The notes beneath the pieces were generated by a model. The model was not told the DNA's origin. It saw nothing but the letters and a program-made list of their open reading frames with translations, and did not search any database. The translations under genes were made by a program, and so were the position numbers. 64,000 bases of DNA from positions 1-64,000 of the forward strand of contig JAUIMC010000011.1 in the NCBI GenBank assembly GCA_030433215.1, given 5' to 3'. Each line of letters opens with the position of its first letter. Position 1 is the first letter of the stretch. Below, in pieces: positions 54,552-62,164 of the stretch. This DNA comes from Alphaproteobacteria bacterium. Its GTDB lineage: Bacteria > Pseudomonadota > Alphaproteobacteria > Caulobacterales > Parvularculaceae.

Positions 54552-55793
54552 TTAACCAAGCATCTGGTGCGTCTTGTGGAGCCCTGCAACCAGCGCCTCC
54601 ACGTCTTCATGGGTGTTGTAGGCGGCGAAACTCGCCCGCGCGGTCGCGGACACGCCGAGGCGCAGCATCAGCGGCTGGGCGCAATGGTGCCCGGCGCGCA
54701 CGGCGACCCCTGTACGATCCAGGATCGCGGAAATGTCGTGCGGGTGCGCGCCCTCCACCGTGAAGGCGATGATCGGCGCTTTGTTTTCCGCGCGTCCGAA
54801 GACGCGCACGAAATTGAGCTTCGCCAGTTCTTCGAGCACATGGGTCTTGAGGCGCGCTTCATGAGCAGCGATGGCCTCGACGCCTTTTTCGCGCATCCAG
54901 GTCAAGGACGCGCCGAGCCCGATGGCCTCGAGGATCGGCGGCGTGCCCGCTTCGAAGCGGTGCGGCGGGTCGTTATAGGTGACGGCATCCTGCGTCACCA
55001 TGTCGATCATTTCGCCGCCGCCCTTGAACGGCGGCAGGGCGTTGAGCGCGTCCATCTTGCCGTAGAGAACGCCCACGCCGGACGGCCCGTAAAGCTTGTG
55101 GCCGGTCATGACATAGAAGTCGCAGTCAATGTCCTGCACGTCGACGGCGCCGTGCACGCCCGCCTGGCAACCGTCGAAGAGGATCTTCGCGCCATGTTCG
55201 TGAGCAATGGCCGTCAACTCTTTCGCCGGCGTCTCGGCGCCCAAGACATTCGACATATGGGAGATCGCGACCAGCTTCGTCTTGTCCGTGAAGAGTGCGC
55301 GATAGGCGTCGAGGTCGATCTCGCCGTCATCGGAAACGTCGAGCCATTTCAGGACCGCGCCCTTGCGCTCGCGCAACAGATGCCAGGGCACGATATTGGA
55401 GTGGTGCTCGGCGACGGAGAGAATGATCTCGTCGCCCTCGCCTATCTCTTGCACCCCCATCGCATAAGAAACGAGATTGAACGCATCCGTGCCGCCCGAC
55501 GTAAAGACGATCTCATCCGCCGAGCGGGCGTTCAGAAACGCCGCAACCGTTTTGCGCGCCTCTTCATAGGCCGCCGTCGTCTCGTTCGAGAGGAGATGCA
55601 GCCCGCGATGCACATTCGCATAGGAGTGCTCCATTGAATGCGTCAGGGCGTCGATCACAGCGCGCGGCTTCTGCGCCGAGGCCGCGCTGTCGAGATAGAC
55701 GAGCCGCTTGCCATAGGCGTCGCGTTCAAGGATCGGAAACTCCTTGCGCAAAGCCTCGACATCGAGAGGGGTTATGGGCGCGCCGTCACTCAT
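54552..55793 (-). CDS. sufS: cysteine desulfurase SufS
   Basis: This 413-residue group II cysteine desulfurase uses pyridoxal phosphate bound to Lys233 (MTGHKLYGP) and carries the persulfide on Cys371 (RAGHHCAQP). The EAGTPPILEAIGLGASL segment is typical. It supplies sulfur to SufBCD, usually through SufE, and no sufE is in the window. Its ATG overlaps the sufD stop by four bases. Confidence 0.96.
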   Translation of the reverse strand: MSDGAPITPLDVEALRKEFPILERDAYGKRLVYLDSAASAQKPRAVIDALTHSMEHSYANVHRGLHLLSNETTAAYEEARKTVAAFLNARSADEIVFTSGGTDAFNLVSYAMGVQEIGEGDEIILSVAEHHSNIVPWHLLRERKGAVLKWLDVSDDGEIDLDAYRALFTDKTKLVAISHMSNVLGAETPAKELTAIAHEHGAKILFDGCQAGVHGAVDVQDIDCDFYVMTGHKLYGPSGVGVLYGKMDALNALPPFKGGGEMIDMVTQDAVTYNDPPHRFEAGTPPILEAIGLGASLTWMREKGVEAIAAHEARLKTHVLEELAKLNFVRVFGRAENKAPIIAFTVEGAHPHDISAILDRTGVAVRAGHHCAQPLMLRLGVSATARASFAAYNTHEDVEALVAGLHKTHQMLG

Positions 55794-57016
55794 GCTTTCT
55801 CCAGCCAGTCGGAAACGCGCGCGGCGAATATCGCGCGCAAGCCTTCGTCTTCTATGTTTTCCGTCACCTCGCCCACAAACGCCTCGACGAGCAGCGCGCG
55901 CGCAGAAGCCTCATCGAGCCCGCGCTGGCGCAGATAAAACAGCGCGTCGTCGTCGAGCGCGCCGACGGTCGAACCGTGGGCGCATTCGACATCGTCGGCG
56001 TAAATCTCAAGCTCGGGCTTGTGGTTCGCCTCAGCGCCGTCAGAAAGAAGCAGCGCATTGGCGGTCATTTTCGCGTCCGTCTTCTGCGCGGCGCGCAGGA
56101 CATTGAACTTGCCCTGGAACACATTGCGCGCGCGGTCCTTGGCGACGCCCTTGTGCAGCTGCGCCGCGGCGCAGTCCGGCGCGCGGAACAGCGCCTCGCT
56201 CGTGAAGTCCGCATGGCGTTCGCCCGACAGCAGCGACGCGCTGTTCATGGAGGCCGAGGAACCGGGCGCCCAGAAATGCACATGGGTCTCGTGCCGGGAC
56301 AGGCGCCCGCCGGTGGAAAGGCCGGTCTGGTAAAACTTTGCTTTTTCATCGAGCTTCGCGGCGCAAATTGCGTGCGTCACATTTTCCGCGCTCGTTTCGT
56401 TCAGGACGGCGCGGCGGAACTCGGCGCCGTCGCGCACCACCATGTGGCAGAGATGGGAATAAAACCCGGCGCCCTCGCCTTCATAGGTTTCGATGATCTG
56501 CACTTTTGCATTGTCCGCAATGCGCAGCATGGACTGGGCGAAGGAGAACCCGGCGCCGCCATTGATGTGACGAATGAGGATGGGCCGTTCGAAATCGACG
56601 CCGTCCAGCACTTCGATCCCCAGCGCCTTGCGCGTCATGGCGACGTTCAAGGTGGCGATGGGATGGTTTTCAAGCTCGTCGATCGTGCCGACCGGGTCCA
56701 TCACGCCGTAGCGCAAGCCTTCGGGCGCGTCTTCCTTCGGCAGGTCGATGCGGCCGTTGACGATGCGGAATTCAAGCGGCTCGAGCGCGGCGAAAGGCGA
56801 TGGTTCAATCTCCGGCGTTTCGACCTCGCCCGGCGCATCTTTACGCAGGACGGCGTTCACATCGCTCCATTTCCAGCCCTCGACGCGCCGGTGCGGCAGG
56901 CCGAGCTTCGCGAACCGGTCGAACGCCGCCGCCTGGCGCTCATTGGTTTTCGAGCGCGCTTCATATGCCGCCTCAATCGCGGCCTCGAAAGCAGATGGAT
57001 TGGCGAGAGCCGTCAT
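55790..57016 (-). CDS. sufD: Fe-S cluster assembly protein SufD
   Basis: This 408-residue SufD has a helical N-terminal region (about 1-70, PHRRVEGWKWSDV) and the beta-helix core, ending with HGSTVGALDDDALFYLRQRGLDEASARALLVEAF. The core residues around HGSTVG contain the His and nearby Cys (VECAHGSTVG) of the SufB-SufD cluster site. It is part of the SufBC2D scaffold. It starts five bases after sufC. Confidence 0.95.
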   Translation of the reverse strand: MTALANPSAFEAAIEAAYEARSKTNERQAAAFDRFAKLGLPHRRVEGWKWSDVNAVLRKDAPGEVETPEIEPSPFAALEPLEFRIVNGRIDLPKEDAPEGLRYGVMDPVGTIDELENHPIATLNVAMTRKALGIEVLDGVDFERPILIRHINGGAGFSFAQSMLRIADNAKVQIIETYEGEGAGFYSHLCHMVVRDGAEFRRAVLNETSAENVTHAICAAKLDEKAKFYQTGLSTGGRLSRHETHVHFWAPGSSASMNSASLLSGERHADFTSEALFRAPDCAAAQLHKGVAKDRARNVFQGKFNVLRAAQKTDAKMTANALLLSDGAEANHKPELEIYADDVECAHGSTVGALDDDALFYLRQRGLDEASARALLVEAFVGEVTENIEDEGLRAIFAARVSDWLEKA

Positions 57017-57021
57017 AATCT

Positions 57022-57783
57022 TTACGCCGCCTCGATAAACTGATCGTAGCCGGACTTCTCGAGCTCGACCGCAAGCTCCGGCCCGCCGGATTTGACGATG
57101 CGCCCGCCGGCGAGCACATGCACCGCGTCCGGCTTGATGTAGTCGAGAAGCCGCTGATAGTGGGTGATGACGAGGAAGCCGCGATCCGGACCCCGCAATT
57201 CGTTCACCACGGCGCCGACCATTTTCAACGCATCGATGTCGAGCCCGGAATCGGTCTCGTCCATGATCGCGAAACGCGGTTCGAACATCGCCATTTGCAG
57301 CATTTCCATGCGCTTCTTCTCGCCGCCGGAAAAACCGACATTGAACTGGCGCTTCAGCTTGGCGTCGTCGAGCCCGACGAGTTTGGCTTTTTCGCGAATG
57401 AGGCGGATGAAATCCGCCGCGGAAACTTCGCCCTCGCCCCGCGCCTTGCGCTGGGCGTTCAAGGCCGTGCGGATGAAATTCATGGTCTGCACGCCGGGGA
57501 TTTCCATGGGGTGCTGGAAGGACAGGAACAGCCCCTTCGCCGCGCGCTCGTCCGGGTCGAGGCCCATGACGCTTTGTCCGTCAAGCAAGACGTCGCCCGA
57601 CGTCGCCTCATAGCCGTCGCGTCCGGCGACGGTGTAAGACAGCGTCGACTTGCCGGAGCCGTTCGGCCCCATGATGGCGTGCACTTCGCCTTTCGGGACC
57701 TCAAGCGAGAGCCCTTTCAGGATTTCATTACCGTCGCCGTTTTCGTTTCCAACGGCGACATGGAGGTCTTCAATCTTCAACAT
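57022..57783 (-). CDS. sufC: Fe-S cluster assembly ATPase SufC
   Basis: This 253-residue ABC-type ATPase has Walker A GPNGSGKST (39-47), the SufC-type signature FSGGEKKRMEM and Walker B AIMDETDSGLDID. It drives conformational change of the SufBCD scaffold. The ATG overlaps the stop of the preceding RidA-like gene by one base (TAATG), so their translation is coupled. Confidence 0.96.
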   Translation of the reverse strand: MLKIEDLHVAVGNENGDGNEILKGLSLEVPKGEVHAIMGPNGSGKSTLSYTVAGRDGYEATSGDVLLDGQSVMGLDPDERAAKGLFLSFQHPMEIPGVQTMNFIRTALNAQRKARGEGEVSAADFIRLIREKAKLVGLDDAKLKRQFNVGFSGGEKKRMEMLQMAMFEPRFAIMDETDSGLDIDALKMVGAVVNELRGPDRGFLVITHYQRLLDYIKPDAVHVLAGGRIVKSGGPELAVELEKSGYDQFIEAA

Positions 57784-58217
57784 TAGTCCGTCTTTCTGAC
57801 TGCCAGGCATTCGATTTCGAGCGCGGCGCCGAGCGCCAGCCCGTTGACGCCGAAGGTGGAGCGCGCGGGCTTCGGGTCCGGCAACGCCGCGGCGTAAGCC
57901 GCATTCATCTCGCCATATGCCGCCATGTCGCCCAGAAACACCGTGCATTTGACGATGTCGGAAAGCTCCGCGCCGACCGCCGCAAGCGTCTTTTCGTAAT
58001 TCTTGAAAATCTGCGTCGTCTGCGGCCCGACGCCGCCTTCCGCAAGTTCGCCGTCCTCAGTCAGGCCGATCTCGCCGGAGAGATAGATCGTGTCGCCGAC
58101 CACCACCGCCGACGAGAAGGGATAGCCCTCCATGGACGGGTCCTTGTAATGCTCGCGTTCGCCCGCAAAAGCCGCGGTCGTCACAAATGCGCAAATCATC
58201 CCCAAGAAAAATTTCAT
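57783..58217 (-). CDS. exported RidA family protein
   Basis: This 144-residue protein is a RidA/YjgF homologue with a signal peptide (MKFFLGMICAFVTTAAFAG, cleavage near residue 18). The RidA active-site Arg119 (PARSTF) and the Glu 15 residues later (Glu134) are kept, so imine/enamine deaminase activity is possible. Canonical RidA is cytoplasmic and destroys 2-aminoacrylate from PLP enzymes; an exported form inside a suf operon is odd. It is coupled to sufC. Confidence 0.9.
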   Translation of the reverse strand: MKFFLGMICAFVTTAAFAGEREHYKDPSMEGYPFSSAVVVGDTIYLSGEIGLTEDGELAEGGVGPQTTQIFKNYEKTLAAVGAELSDIVKCTVFLGDMAAYGEMNAAYAAALPDPKPARSTFGVNGLALGAALEIECLAVRKTD

Positions 58218-58243
58218 CGTCGTTGTTCCCCTGATGAAGCCGG

Positions 58244-58483
58244 TCAGGCTTTTGATACGTGTTTGGCGGTAAAGGCGTGAAGCCGTTCGCGGGCTTTCAC
58301 GAACTCCTCGTGAGCCTTCATTTCCGCCACGAAGCCGTTCTGGTCGAACTTGTCGCGGTCGTAATGGCGCGCCATCTCCGAAAAGGCGCCGCCGATATGG
58401 CTGAGCGCGGCCTCATAGGCTTTGCGCTTTTCCTCATAATCCGCGTAGAGCTTTTCCCACTCTTTCCATTCTTTCTCGTTCAT
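58244..58483 (-). CDS. hypothetical 79-residue helical protein
   Basis: This small protein is highly charged and predicted all-helical (MNEKEWKEWEKLYADYEEKR; KAHEEFVKARERLHAFTAKH), with no membrane segment. I do not recognise it. GAGGAAAG precedes the ATG. It lies between the exported cupin and the exported RidA genes in the suf operon. A coiled-coil adaptor is one possibility, without further support. Confidence 0.65.
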   Translation of the reverse strand: MNEKEWKEWEKLYADYEEKRKAYEAALSHIGGAFSEMARHYDRDKFDQNGFVAEMKAHEEFVKARERLHAFTAKHVSKA

Positions 58484-58500
58484 GGCTCGCTTTCCTCTAC

Positions 58501-58956
58501 TTACTGCGCGGCCGATTTCGGCTCGAAGATCAGATAGACACTCTCCGTCTCGCCGACATTCACCGCCTCGTGCCATTCGACGCCGTCGCTCCACCAGGAA
58601 GCGCCGTCGCCGGTCTCCATGTCGCGCGTACCGTCCGCATCGGTGATGCGCATGGTCCCGCCTTTCAGGATGTAGCCGTAATGGGGCGGGTGATAATGGC
58701 GCTCATGGCCGACGCCCGGCGGGAATGTGCAGCGCGCGACGCGCGTTTCTTCGTTCTCGAACAGAAGTTCGCAGACTTTCTCGCCCTTCCAGCCGGCGTC
58801 GATGGCGTGCGGCAGCGCGGCATCGCCTTGCGTTTCCGCACTCGCCTTTTTCATCACCAGCGCGCCGCCGGAGGCCGGGATCGGGTTTTCCTCCGGCTGC
58901 GCCGAAGCGCTCGCCGTCAGGGCGACAAACGCCGTAAAACAACTGACCACTCTCAT
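58501..58956 (-). CDS. exported cupin domain protein
   Basis: This 151-residue protein has a signal peptide (cleavage near SASAQ, about 18) and a cupin domain (about 60-148) with GVGHERHYHPPHYGYILKGG, which supplies several His metal ligands, and DGVEWHEAVNVG for the second motif. A periplasmic metal-dependent function is likely but unknown. Its ATG overlaps the sufB stop by one base (TAATG), so it is translated with SufB. Confidence 0.85.
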   Translation of the reverse strand: MRVVSCFTAFVALTASASAQPEENPIPASGGALVMKKASAETQGDAALPHAIDAGWKGEKVCELLFENEETRVARCTFPPGVGHERHYHPPHYGYILKGGTMRITDADGTRDMETGDGASWWSDGVEWHEAVNVGETESVYLIFEPKSAAQ

Positions 58957-60494
58957 TACCCGACGCTCCCTTCGAGACTCACCGAGACAAGCTTCTGCGC
59001 TTCGACGGCGAATTCCATGGGCAGCTCCTGCAGGACTTCCTTGCAGAAGCCGTTGACGAGAAGCGCCACGGCTTCCTCTTCGGAAAGGCCGCGCTGCTGG
59101 CAATAGAAAAGCTGGTCTTCCGAAAGCCGCGAGGTCGTCGCCTCATGCTCGAGGATCGCGCGCGGATTTTTACTCTCCACGTAAGGCACGGTGTGAGCGC
59201 CGCATTGATCGCCGATGAGGAGCGAGTCGCATTGCGTGAAATTGCGCGCGCCTTCGGCCTTGCGGTGAATGCTGACAAGCCCGCGATAGGTGGAGTTCGA
59301 TTTGCCCGCCGAAATGCCTTTGGCAATGATCCGCGACCTAGTGTTCTTGCCCAAGTGAATCATCTTGGTGCCGGTGTCGGCCTGCTGGTAATTGTTGGTG
59401 ATGGCGATGGAGTAGAACTCGCCTTGCGAATTGTCGCCTTTCAGGACGCAGGAGGGATATTTCCACGTCACCGCGGAGCCGGTCTCGACCTGCGTCCAAG
59501 ACACCTTGGAATTCACCCCGCGGCAGTCGGCGCGCTTGGTGACGAAATTATAGATGCCGCCCTTGCCGTCCTTGTCGCCGGGATACCAGTTCTGGACCGT
59601 CGAATATTTGATCTCGGCGTCGTCTTCGACGACAAGCTCGACGACGGCGGCGTGAAGCTGGTTTTCGTCGCGCATGGGCGCAGTGCAGCCTTCGAGATAG
59701 CTCACATAAGAGCCCGGCGCAGCGACGATGAGCGTGCGCTCGAACTGGCCGGTGTTCGCCTCGTTGATGCGGAAATAAGTCGACAGCTCCATGGGGCAGC
59801 GAACGCCTTCCGGCACATAAACGAAAGTGCCGTCGGAAAAGACCGCCGTGTTCAGGGTCGCGAAGAAATTATCGGAGGCCGGCACCACGGTGCCGAGATA
59901 TTTCCGCACGAGGTCCGGATGCTCGCGCACGGCCTCTGAAATCGACATGAAGATGACGCCGGCTTTTTCGAGCTCTTTTTTAAACGTCGTGGCGACGGAA
60001 ACGGAATCGAAGACCGCGTCGACGGCGACCTTGCTCCCCGACCCGTTTGTCTCGCCATCGGGATGGGTGCGCGCTTCGCCGGGGCTCTGTCCCGCCCCTT
60101 CGACGCCGAGCAGGACCTCCGCTTCTTTCAGCGGGATGCCGAGCTTTTCGAAATCCTCAAGGATTTCCTTCGGCACGTCGTCGATGGATTCGTATTTCGC
60201 GCCCGAGGTGGGCTCGGAATAATAATAATGGTCCTGATAGTCGATGGGCGGATAATGCACCATCGCCCATTCCGGCTCTTTCATGGTGAGCCAGCGCCGG
60301 AACGCCTCGAGCCGCCATTCAAGGAGCCATTCCGGCTCTTCCTTTTTGGCGGAGATAAAGCGCACCGTGTCTTCATTGAGACCCTTCGGCGCCTTCACCG
60401 ACTCGATGTCGGTCGTGAAGCCGTATTTATAGGTCTCCAGCGCTTTCGCCGTGTCGACGGTTTCTTTCGAAATGGATTCTTTGACTTCTGACAT
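58956..60494 (-). CDS. sufB: Fe-S cluster assembly protein SufB
   Basis: This 512-residue protein is the core SufB scaffold. It has [18 protein letters not shown] at the N-terminus, the beta-helix with [22 protein letters not shown] and [21 protein letters not shown], and the C-terminal [31 protein letters not shown] with the Cys/Glu/His cluster-assembly region. The length (about 500) matches the family. The start directly abuts the stop of the second cysteine desulfurase. Confidence 0.96.
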
Positions 60495-61634
60495 TTAAGC
60501 AGCTTTCGCTTTGATGCGGTCGTAAGCTTTCGGCCATTCGCGGATGAAGGCGTCGGCGTCGTCTTGCGTGGAGTTCCAGCCGAGCGACACGCGGATCGCC
60601 GACGTCGCCTCGTCTTCGCCGGCGCCCATGGCGGTCAGGACATGGCTCGGTTTCGTCTTGCCGGAAGAACAGGCCGAGCCCGCCGAGATGGCGATCCCCG
60701 ACAGGTCCATGGTCATGAGCTGCGTCGCGCCGGGAAAGCCCGGCGCGGAGAGGCACAGCGTTCCCGGCAAACGCTCCGCGTTTGCCCCCCAGATTTTCGC
60801 GCCGGCGCGGACCGCCGCGTCCTGCATCGCATCGCGCAGCGCCGCGATCTCCTTGGCGCGCGCAAGGCTGTCTTTGGCGAGCGCGCAGGCTTTCCCAAGC
60901 CCGGCGACGCCCGCAACATTATGGGTGCCGGCGCGGCGATTGCTTTCATGACCGCCGCCGCGCAGTTGCGGTTCCAGCGGCAGATTGGAACCGGCGACAA
61001 GCGCGCCGACGCCCACCGGCCCGCCGAATTTGTGACCCGTGAAGGACATGATGTCCGCGCCCGACATCACGAAATTGACGGGGACTTTGCCCACCGCCTG
61101 CGCCGCATCGCAGAACAACAGCCCGCCCGCTTCATGGGCAATCGCCGCCGCCTCGTGCACCGGCTGGATGACGCCGGTCTCGTTATTGGCGAACATCAGG
61201 CACACCATGAAGCCGCCGTCGCGCTCCGCGTCGTAATTTTTAAGGCGCTCTTTCAGCCAGCCAAGATCGGCGACGCCCGAAGGAAGCGCCGGAATGGTTT
61301 CGATGTCCGCGCCCGTGGTCTCGGCGTTCGCGGGAACCGCCGTGTGTTCGATGGCGCTCACGAAAAAACGTTTAATGTTGTGCGGCTTCATCGCGCCATG
61401 CAGGGCGTAATGAATCGACTCCGTGCCGCCGCTCGTGAAGATGACGCCGTTCATGGGCGCGTTCACAAGCGCGCGCACCTGTTCGCGCGCATCCTCGAGA
61501 ATCTTGTGGGCGCGCCGCCCTTCTTCATGAACCGACAGCGAATTGCCGTCATGGCGCATGGTCTCCGCGACGATGTCGATCACTTCCGGGCGAATGGGCG
61601 CGGTCGCATTATGGTCGAGATAGTGACGGGTCAT
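60495..61634 (-). CDS. cysteine desulfurase, IscS/NifS type
   Basis: This 379-residue group I desulfurase has the PLP Lys202 (FTGHKFGGP), NNETGVIQPV and the active-site Cys322 in SAGSACSSG. A second desulfurase next to sufB, in addition to SufS, is typical of alphaproteobacterial suf operons. Its ATG overlaps the stop of the Rrf2 gene by four bases. Confidence 0.94.
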   Translation of the reverse strand: MTRHYLDHNATAPIRPEVIDIVAETMRHDGNSLSVHEEGRRAHKILEDAREQVRALVNAPMNGVIFTSGGTESIHYALHGAMKPHNIKRFFVSAIEHTAVPANAETTGADIETIPALPSGVADLGWLKERLKNYDAERDGGFMVCLMFANNETGVIQPVHEAAAIAHEAGGLLFCDAAQAVGKVPVNFVMSGADIMSFTGHKFGGPVGVGALVAGSNLPLEPQLRGGGHESNRRAGTHNVAGVAGLGKACALAKDSLARAKEIAALRDAMQDAAVRAGAKIWGANAERLPGTLCLSAPGFPGATQLMTMDLSGIAISAGSACSSGKTKPSHVLTAMGAGEDEATSAIRVSLGWNSTQDDADAFIREWPKAYDRIKAKAA

Positions 61635-62164
61635 TCCGCCGCTCCTGCGAAGCGGGTTTCATGGGCGAGGTCTTTGACGCCTGCATCCTCACGGGAAGAG
61701 TCTTCAATTTGCGCGCCTTCGCGCGCGGGGGCGTTGACCGCGGCCATGCCGAGAACGCGGCGCTCGATAATGTCTTCAAGCGTCACGGCGTTGAGAAAGA
61801 CTTCGATCTGGCGGCCGAGCTCGTCCCAGAGATCGTGGGTGAGACAGCGCGCGCTCGTGCCCTTGCAGCCGACGGTCGACCCCGCCGCGCAGGCCGTGGT
61901 GCGGATTTCCTCGTCCACCGCCGCGACGATGTCAGCGACGCGCATCTGCGAAGCGGGCGCAGTCAGCGCATAGCCGCCCGCCACCCCTCGGACGCTTTCC
62001 ACAAGCCCCGCCCGGCGCAGCTTGCCGAAAAGCTGCTCCAGATAGGACAGCGAAATCCCCTGCCTCAGGGCGATATCCGAAAGGGCCACCGGCGCTTCAC
62101 CGCCCGTCGCGGCGATATCGGCAAGCGCCGAAACCGCATATCTGCCTTTGGTCGTTAACTTCAC
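61631..62164 (-). CDS. iscR: Rrf2 family regulator, IscR type
   Basis: This 177-residue protein has the Rrf2 winged helix (MKLTTKGRYAVSALADIA..., GISLSYLEQLFGKLRRAGLVESVRG) and three cysteines at 92, 100 and 107 followed by His110, matching the [2Fe-2S] ligand pattern of IscR with slightly wider spacing. It probably represses the suf operon when holo. The start is GTG with AAGG seven bases upstream. The C-terminal 45 residues are a low-complexity tail. A type-I IscR-like box lies in its promoter. Confidence 0.9.
   Translation of the reverse strand: MKLTTKGRYAVSALADIAATGGEAPVALSDIALRQGISLSYLEQLFGKLRRAGLVESVRGVAGGYALTAPASQMRVADIVAAVDEEIRTTACAAGSTVGCKGTSARCLTHDLWDELGRQIEVFLNAVTLEDIIERRVLGMAAVNAPAREGAQIEDSSREDAGVKDLAHETRFAGAAE

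Follow-up and report, generated by a model that had tools for sequence, protein, structure and literature searches.

The sufB-sufC junction of Parvularculaceae as a variable gene slot, often filled by proteins with export-type starts

In a 64,000-nucleotide stretch of DNA from an Alphaproteobacteria bacterium of the family Parvularculaceae (contig JAUIMC010000011.1 of assembly GCA_030433215.1; hereafter the window), the suf operon carries three genes between sufB and sufC, encoding a cupin (here cupin A), a charged helical protein of 79 residues and a protein of the RidA superfamily. We found that the content of this junction changes across the family, and we propose that the junction acts as a cargo slot which puts small, often exported-type proteins under iron-sulfur (Fe-S) or iron control, a reading to which we assign a probability of about 0.58. 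The feature itself is real, conserved and wider than first described from the window alone, and both the slot and its lean toward exported-type cargo appear to be new within the open-access literature searched. Throughout, family stands for Parvularculaceae, order for Caulobacterales, class for Alphaproteobacteria and slot for the interval between sufB and sufC; numbers with G and L are our labels for genomes and loci.

Variable gene content between sufB and sufC

The family collection comprised 62 genomes, 56 of which had SufB matches; 57 loci were fetched, and sufB and sufC were both found in 51 of them. The sufB-sufC interval measured at least 200 bp in 46 of these 51 loci, with a median of 960 and a maximum of 4340 bp, while sufC-sufD reached 200 bp in 1 of 46 family loci and sufD-sufS in 6 of 46. 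The sufB-sufC junction is the most open one of the operon in the family, not the only one. The sufD-sufS intervals, of 325 to 1156 bp, occur in G075, G076, G077, G078, G028 and G068, five of the six falling in one genus group.

Between the conserved sufB and sufC the gene content is variable. Cupin A was present in the slot of 26 of the 51 family loci, with remnants in two more (G069, G032), and RidA in 25 of 51 (these content counts rest on tblastn presence; the picks of open reading frames, ORFs, were mechanical and include wrong-frame ORFs). Both proteins shared the slot in 19 of the 51 loci, RidA preceding the cupin in five, so that the placing of cupin and RidA between sufB and sufC, described by the sequence-only reading from one genome, is not a single-strain arrangement. 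Other cargo recurred as well: a signal-less second cupin, another lipoprotein family, a short-chain dehydrogenase/reductase (SDR), a 4HBT thioesterase, an ORF that we call J1, and a SnoaL/NTF2-like protein with a lipobox-type start, for which the Pfam match to SnoaL_3 (E 0.0086) stays below the cut-off. A GIY-YIG protein was a single case, and so was a carbonic anhydrase next to an ORF that by eye resembles a SulP transporter. The latter two stand in L091 (G035), whose 4.3 kb slot also holds a RidA-type ORF and short repeated ORFs such as 'CHSRVGGNP'. J1 was matched in 15 of 160 genomes and lies in the slot of G082, G029 and G078; by coordinates to sufB, it stands directly downstream of sufB in G152 and 1.2 kb downstream in G184. 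To judge from a label, J1 may belong to the family of the Caulobacter ORF annotated as ADP-ribosylglycohydrolase.

Gain and loss can both be traced. The interval is shorter than 80 bp in five family loci, and the short intervals of G010 and G026 retain, after a TGATG, the final codons of the cupin, which we read as deletion scars. On a SufB tree of 131 rows, 12 changes were required for cupin A, 12 for RidA and 6 each for the second cupin, the SnoaL-like protein and J1. The window genome (G000) forms a group with G023 and G009 on a SufB tree (99/84); the cupins (81-82%) and helical proteins (71-78%) of the three genomes are in agreement with it, and the RidA of G009 is of the lipoprotein type. 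Holding the three RidAs as one clade was rejected by the approximately unbiased test, with a p-AU of 0.033 that is flattered by the choice of the group after an earlier tree; the test tree omitted the cupin row G023_613 and nine rows judged too distant. The deviating RidA of G009 may be read as a replacement in place or as a loss from a pair. In a wider RidA tree, slot RidAs fell in several places, with G051, G055 and G120 far off, and because this tree contains long branches and one wrong row (the cupin G023_613) we limit the claim to more than one recruitment.

Export-type starts of slot proteins

Export was called by a lenient, home-made signal-peptide heuristic that chooses the best start codon. 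It flagged 27 of 27 slot RidAs of the family as export-type, 14 of them like substrates of signal peptidase I (SPI) and 13 with a lipobox, so that slot RidAs use two targeting types; six cupin rows brought in by the fusion query were left out of this count, and 0 of 8 controls were flagged, each tested from one start only. The 31 cupin A rows, remnants and fusions included, comprised 22 SPI-like, 1 lipobox-like, 7 merely hydrophobic and 1 without either. The lipobox-like row is the window cupin, in which the lipobox lies within the first six residues and is spurious; by eye, its signal ends in ASA-Q. In G023, G009 and G008, cupin A starts with an anchor-like segment. Judged by eye, the starts of cupin relatives in other orders and in Bacteroidota were export-type in 17 of 19 loci, the ORF picks of the remaining two, L133 and L145, being over-long. 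The start of the window RidA was flagged as SPI-type, and the earlier claim of two exported-type proteins inside the suf operon is borne out insofar as cupin and RidA both have starts that look export-type, RidA by the heuristic and the cupin by eye.

The suf operon of the window

On the minus strand the operon reads iscR-like, nifS/iscS-like, sufB, cupin, 79-residue ORF, RidA, sufC, sufD, sufS-like and sufT-like; apart from sufB, cupin, RidA and sufC, its genes, sufT-like included, are named from order and sequence only. The features are as follows.

61631-62164, minus strand: IscR/Rrf2-like regulator heading the operon, named from order and sequence
60495-61634, minus strand: NifS/IscS-like cysteine desulfurase, the gene just before sufB, named from order and sequence
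58956-60494, minus strand: sufB, left wall of the slot, above cut-off for NCBIfam TIGR01980 and NF008773
58501-58956, minus strand: cupin A, 151 aa, Pfam Cupin_2, export-type start
58244-58483, minus strand: charged helical protein, 79 aa, no known family, optional cargo
57783-58217, minus strand: RidA-superfamily protein, 144 aa, PF01042, SPI-type start
57022-57783, minus strand: sufC, right wall of the slot, TIGR01978 with 338.4 bits vs a cut-off of 212.8
55790-57016, minus strand: sufD, from conserved order and a match to SufB, no insert before it
54552-55793, minus strand: sufS-like, named from order and sequence

These coordinates confirm the insertion of cupin, helical protein and RidA between sufB and sufC, with a TAATG at either end. 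At the sufB/cupin junction the TAA of sufB and the ATG of the cupin share one A, and the same holds for RidA and sufC; the overlaps from which translational coupling at both slot ends had been claimed are therefore present. No promoter- or terminator-like match was found on the minus strand from sufB to sufC in a scan of the window, which is consistent with co-transcription, no more.

Cupin A, RidA and the helical protein

Cupin A matches Cupin_2 (PF07883) with 30.6 bits against a Pfam gathering cut-off of 27.2. Its AlphaFold model shows a confident barrel, with 10-residue block means of 88-98 across residues 51-150, behind 50 low-confidence residues. The nearest folds are BP2299 (2fqp; Foldseek E 4.3e-8) and TM1459, and the top structural matches carry titles of uncharacterised or engineered proteins. 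In an alignment of 41 rows, H84, H87, H89, H92 and H129 are invariant, as are C62 and C76, two cysteines that would suit an oxidising compartment. Strong matches (E below 1e-30) occurred in 21 places among 60 relatives, the window genome included, and each of the 21 shares its fetched stretch with sufB. A SnoaL-like domain is fused behind cupin A in the Parvularculaceae genome G001 and stands ahead of the cupin in the flavobacterial locus L141, and such fusions in both orders argue for joint action of these two. In the Tenacibaculum locus L139 (5509-7764), a RidA-family ORF lies directly ahead of a cupin A ORF of lipoprotein type, followed by an aldehyde dehydrogenase-like ORF.

RidA matches PF01042 with 108.3 bits (Pfam gathering cut-off 27.3) and falls below the cut-off of TIGR00004, the Rid family of detoxifying hydrolases (92.5 vs 106.25 bits), for which reason we file it under the RidA superfamily only. 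Residues 33-142 align on 16-128 of 1qu9, and the offset puts Arg119 and Glu134 near 105 and 120; we take Arg105 and Glu120 of 1qu9 to be the catalytic pair. Both residues, claimed as intact by the sequence-only reading, are indeed present and occur in at least 90% of 26 aligned slot RidAs. A cupin-type N-terminus and linker precede the RidA domain in G014, G016 and G024. A RidA with an export-type start is not a hallmark of the slot alone, for G036, G040 and G052 encode RidA-family proteins with lipobox-type starts at a distance from suf, as do G010 and G026 on other contigs. In G010 and G026 (loci L029 and L030), the lipobox-type RidA-family ORF on the other contig coexists with a slot that keeps only the cupin scar. 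Across 160 genomes, PF01042 has 1-8 members per genome.

The 79-residue protein had no match above cut-off in Pfam or NCBIfam, and the heuristic found no signal peptide. AlphaFold models it as a hairpin of helices 3-40 and 49-76 (mean predicted local distance difference test score, pLDDT, 80.9), and a PDB fold search with this model gave no match at E<=0.001. The small helical protein is present in the window insert as first described; it occurs by tblastn in the slot of 5 of 51 family loci, so it is an optional passenger and we rejected it as a conserved core part. In the relative Marinicaulis flavus (L123) it shares the slot with cupin A, RidA and a second cupin.

The junction beyond Parvularculaceae

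The open junction extends to the order. Among 40 loci from four other families of the order, 39 had a sufC that could be located, and the sufB-sufC interval, of 60 to 2396 bp, reached at least 200 bp in 32 of the 39, against 5 of 40 loci from the rest of the class. Cargo in these order families included a SnoaL_2 protein, a protein like 2-oxoglutarate (2OG)-Fe(II) oxygenases, a glyoxalase-like ORF and a small membrane ORF, the last two below Pfam cut-offs. RidA-family slot ORFs were assigned in G051 by Pfam and in G055 and G120 by the tree, and another was found in G101; G101 and G120 also have slot cupins. On contig C17 of G116, coordinates place a PF01042 match 140 bp downstream of sufB, likely a slot RidA outside the family.

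Twenty further genomes, chosen for carrying a cupin A relative elsewhere, contributed 7 sphingomonad and 13 other loci. In all seven sphingomonad loci the sufB-sufC interval measures 725 to 1387 bp, and in six of them (L230-L234, L248) the slot ORF resembles by eye the DUF559 protein of G281. Among the 13 others, nine have an ORF with a lipobox-type start at the junction, three have no room, and the last is L247 (G335), with flavobacterial-looking sequence, where a RidA-superfamily ORF (Pfam) follows directly on sufB and sufC is out of reach. In Flavobacteriaceae, the family of G329, 79 of 80 genomes matched SufB, and among the best-scoring 30 of the 79 loci (L249-L278), a non-random sample, 24 have a lipobox-type ORF between sufB and sufC (20 by pattern, 4 by eye); the remaining six comprise five short intervals and one locus in which no sufC was found. 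Six of the 24 slot ORFs measure 283 to 296 residues, and the one scanned, L278, has a metallo-beta-lactamase fold. The commonest kind of flavobacterial slot ORF, in loci among L250-L278, measures about 117-149 residues, and two members scanned had no Pfam match above cut-off.

A ribosome-binding core at the end of sufB

The window sufB ends in GAA GGG AGC GTC GGG, coding for EGSVG and embedding a GGAG ribosome-binding core. This C-terminus is EGSVG in 96 of 96 readable order loci, and its first Gly is written GGG in 49 of 56 family loci, 78 of 96 order loci and 6 of 40 loci from the rest of the class, with GGG making up 11-19% of other SufB Gly codons. GGG followed by AGC or AGT, and with it the GGAG core, was found in 75 of 96 order loci vs 5 of 40 in the rest of the class; in all five of the latter, an ORF with 45 codons or more begins at the sufB stop or close to it. 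No GGGAG core was seen in the flavobacterial sufB-sufC junctions examined, which restricts the socket idea to Alphaproteobacteria.

Discussion

We propose that the sufB-sufC junction is a cargo slot within the isc-suf operon. Genes enter and leave it while sufC-sufD stays closed, and most order loci have a ribosome-binding core shortly before the sufB stop, often with a stop/start overlap usable by the next gene. In the window, the slot carries an exported-type cupin, the helical protein and an exported-type RidA, and in its kin often the same pair, sometimes joined by a SnoaL-like protein. By analogy with the slot ORF of Caulobacter crescentus and in part with momL of Muricauda olearia, both compared below, the cargo would be co-transcribed with suf and rise when iron or Fe-S clusters run short. 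As to the function of the cupin-RidA pair, we infer only that cupin, RidA and SnoaL-like protein might cooperate in the envelope, their substrate being a small imine, enamine, keto-type or related metabolite, as a protective or scavenging module under iron or Fe-S limitation and not as a cluster assembly step. If the slot reading holds, exported RidA-family proteins would gain a regulatory context, orphan exported proteins would be listed with a role to seek in iron or Fe-S limitation, and the GGGAG in the EGSVG codons together with the stop/start overlap would provide a natural expression socket.

A wider version can be put forward tentatively, as one that we would not yet favour: an envelope arm of SUF, in which exported enzymes and lipoproteins were brought by selection to the sufB-sufC junction again and again, in two phyla or more, RidA being one of several classes and recruited more than once, with the plug-in socket at the end of sufB in Alphaproteobacteria. 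Cells short of Fe-S clusters would then also alter the chemistry of the periplasm or the surroundings, by imine clearing or lactone degradation for example.

Several observations count against the slot reading. The nifS-sufB junction measures at least 200 bp in 20 of 47 family loci, and the slot is thus not the sole open junction; it also houses signal-less or unrelated genes (SDR, thioesterase, GIY-YIG, carbonic anhydrase, second cupin), and with such contents position alone is no proof of a role in Fe-S assembly. Cupin relatives outside the order sit away from suf, the lenient export heuristic also flagged 2 of 3 SDRs while controls were tested from a single start, and one promoter-like match lies inside sufB on the minus strand (59896-59868; 1 found vs 2.0 expected). 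Within the order, family f2 departs from the rest: the core is found in 2 of its 10 loci, an ORF begins at the overlap in 1 of the 10, and some of its ORFs lie on the opposite strand. The tie between cargo and codon is likewise weaker than it looks: a plain Fisher table, which counts relatives as independent, has 70 loci with a cargo ORF at the overlap and GGG and 14 with the ORF but without GGG, against 14 and 38, respectively, where no such ORF is present, but with relatedness controlled the tie was not significant (4.6 pairs for, 2.3 against, 8.0 undecided), nor was it for intervals of at least 200 bp (5.7 for, 1.2 against, median p 0.125). The idea that an open slot simply goes with the GGG codon, strong in the Fisher table and not significant in the tree-aware pairs, was dropped, and what we claim from these codons is an excess of the GGAG core in the order, not a per-genome coupling.

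The openness of nifS-sufB, family f2 and the post hoc p-AU test slightly weaken the slot reading and its wider version and raise the chance of a neutral hotspot, a tolerated and translated insertion point in a well-expressed operon, where inserts merely do little damage and have no link to iron. We regard this as doubtful yet as a serious contender. The mixed contents, the repeated gain and loss (12 changes each for cupin A and RidA), the remnants in G069 and G032, the scars in G010 and G026 and the inserts at nifS-sufB (20/47) and sufD-sufS (6/46) all count in its favour, whereas evidence against it comes from the lipobox-type bias in Flavobacteriaceae (24 of the best 30 of 79 loci), the export-type starts of 27/27 slot RidAs, a sufC-sufD junction in the same operon that is almost never opened (1/46), and the recurrence of PF01042 proteins of more than one lineage in the slot when a genome has only 1-8 of them; the conserved RidA and cupin sites, too, speak for selection on the proteins.

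The sequence-only reading had gone further and suggested a dedicated periplasmic sulfur or Fe-S branch, with exported RidA and cupin handling cysteine-derived or iron-related metabolites as SUF partners. Linkage of cupin A to suf at all 21 strong places among the 60 relatives, the finding of export-type proteins at this junction in members of two phyla and RidA-superfamily genes of other lineages in the slot (G051, G055, G120, G101) or after sufB (L247) speak in its favour, but the unrelated cargo at the same junction, the related exported-type RidAs far from suf in G036 and G040, and the cupin relatives outside the order that stand away from suf make it unlikely. What stands of that idea is the recurrence, which includes another phylum with a secreted enzyme reported as co-transcribed; a specific sulfur branch is not supported as it was worded. 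Nor is the suggestion that RidA clears 2-aminoacrylate made by cysteine-handling pyridoxal phosphate (PLP) enzymes, for the SufS- and NifS-like enzymes are regarded as cytosolic and the prediction places RidA outside. A guard of this kind over the operon's own cysteine desulfurases would have a precedent in Pseudomonas aeruginosa, where IscS is reported as a damage target of 2-aminoacrylate (PMC9239102, from the portion available), and the RidA-like ORFs of G051, G055 and G120, which by eye have no obvious signal, would fit it. The export-type start, here and in 27/27 family slot RidAs, would nonetheless place RidA away from the desulfurases, so the cytosolic account from P. aeruginosa is not simply transferable; as protector of the desulfurases in the window genome RidA is disfavoured, and we hold this explanation to be very improbable. 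The cargo slot under Fe-S or iron control remains our preferred reading.

Comparison with known systems

At the level of single proteins, cupin A shares the barrel of single-domain Cupin_2 proteins such as BP2299 (2fqp) and TM1459 and has conserved histidines, and it differs from them by its export-type start and the low-confidence first 50 residues. The window RidA shares with the RidA/YjgF/UK114 imine deaminases (PF01042) the superfamily and the conserved Arg and Glu, and is set apart by its signal-type start and a score below the TIGR00004 cut-off. To our knowledge, RidA/YjgF/UK114 members are cytosolic or organellar, and in the open-access literature on RidA with a signal peptide or in the periplasm, the RidA of the paper looked at is described as cytoplasmic, as far as its available text goes.

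As for the junction, no published sufB-sufC insertion slot was found in the open-access literature searched, apart from two individual cases. In Muricauda olearia, the place between sufB and sufC is taken by momL, for which co-transcription with suf is reported from transcript levels; secretion of MomL rises in low iron, and with indole the momL transcript is up nearly 7-fold in low iron (PMC5484670). It thereby resembles the window in having a secreted enzyme gene at the same junction, and differs in that MomL is an N-acyl-homoserine lactone (AHL) lactonase from another phylum, whose location its authors term unique, with no slot described in the available part of their text (PMC5484670). The flavobacterial slot ORF L278 shares with MomL its recorded family, the metallo-beta-lactamase fold.

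In Caulobacter crescentus, the ORF CC_1863 stands between sufB and sufC of an IscR-controlled isc-suf operon and is induced with it in low iron, 8.30-fold compared with 7.81 for sufB and 7.89 for sufC, and some operon junctions were amplified by reverse transcription PCR (RT-PCR) (PMC11475020, PMC3751524). The same sources, as far as available, describe a chromatin immunoprecipitation (ChIP) peak of IscR at the end of sufB, the relevance of which was unknown to its authors, and no response of the operon to oxidative stress, so that we argue for no oxidative role (PMC11475020, PMC3751524). The likeness lies in an ORF between sufB and sufC that rises with suf in low iron; the difference is that this is one ORF, labelled ADP-ribosylglycohydrolase and not exported, for which the available portions of the papers contain no cross-genome comparison of the slot (PMC11475020, PMC3751524). 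Under the slot reading, the Caulobacter ORF and momL, now two isolated oddities, would become instances of one rule, in which exchangeable genes, often for exported proteins, are expressed from a fixed operon junction under Fe-S control.

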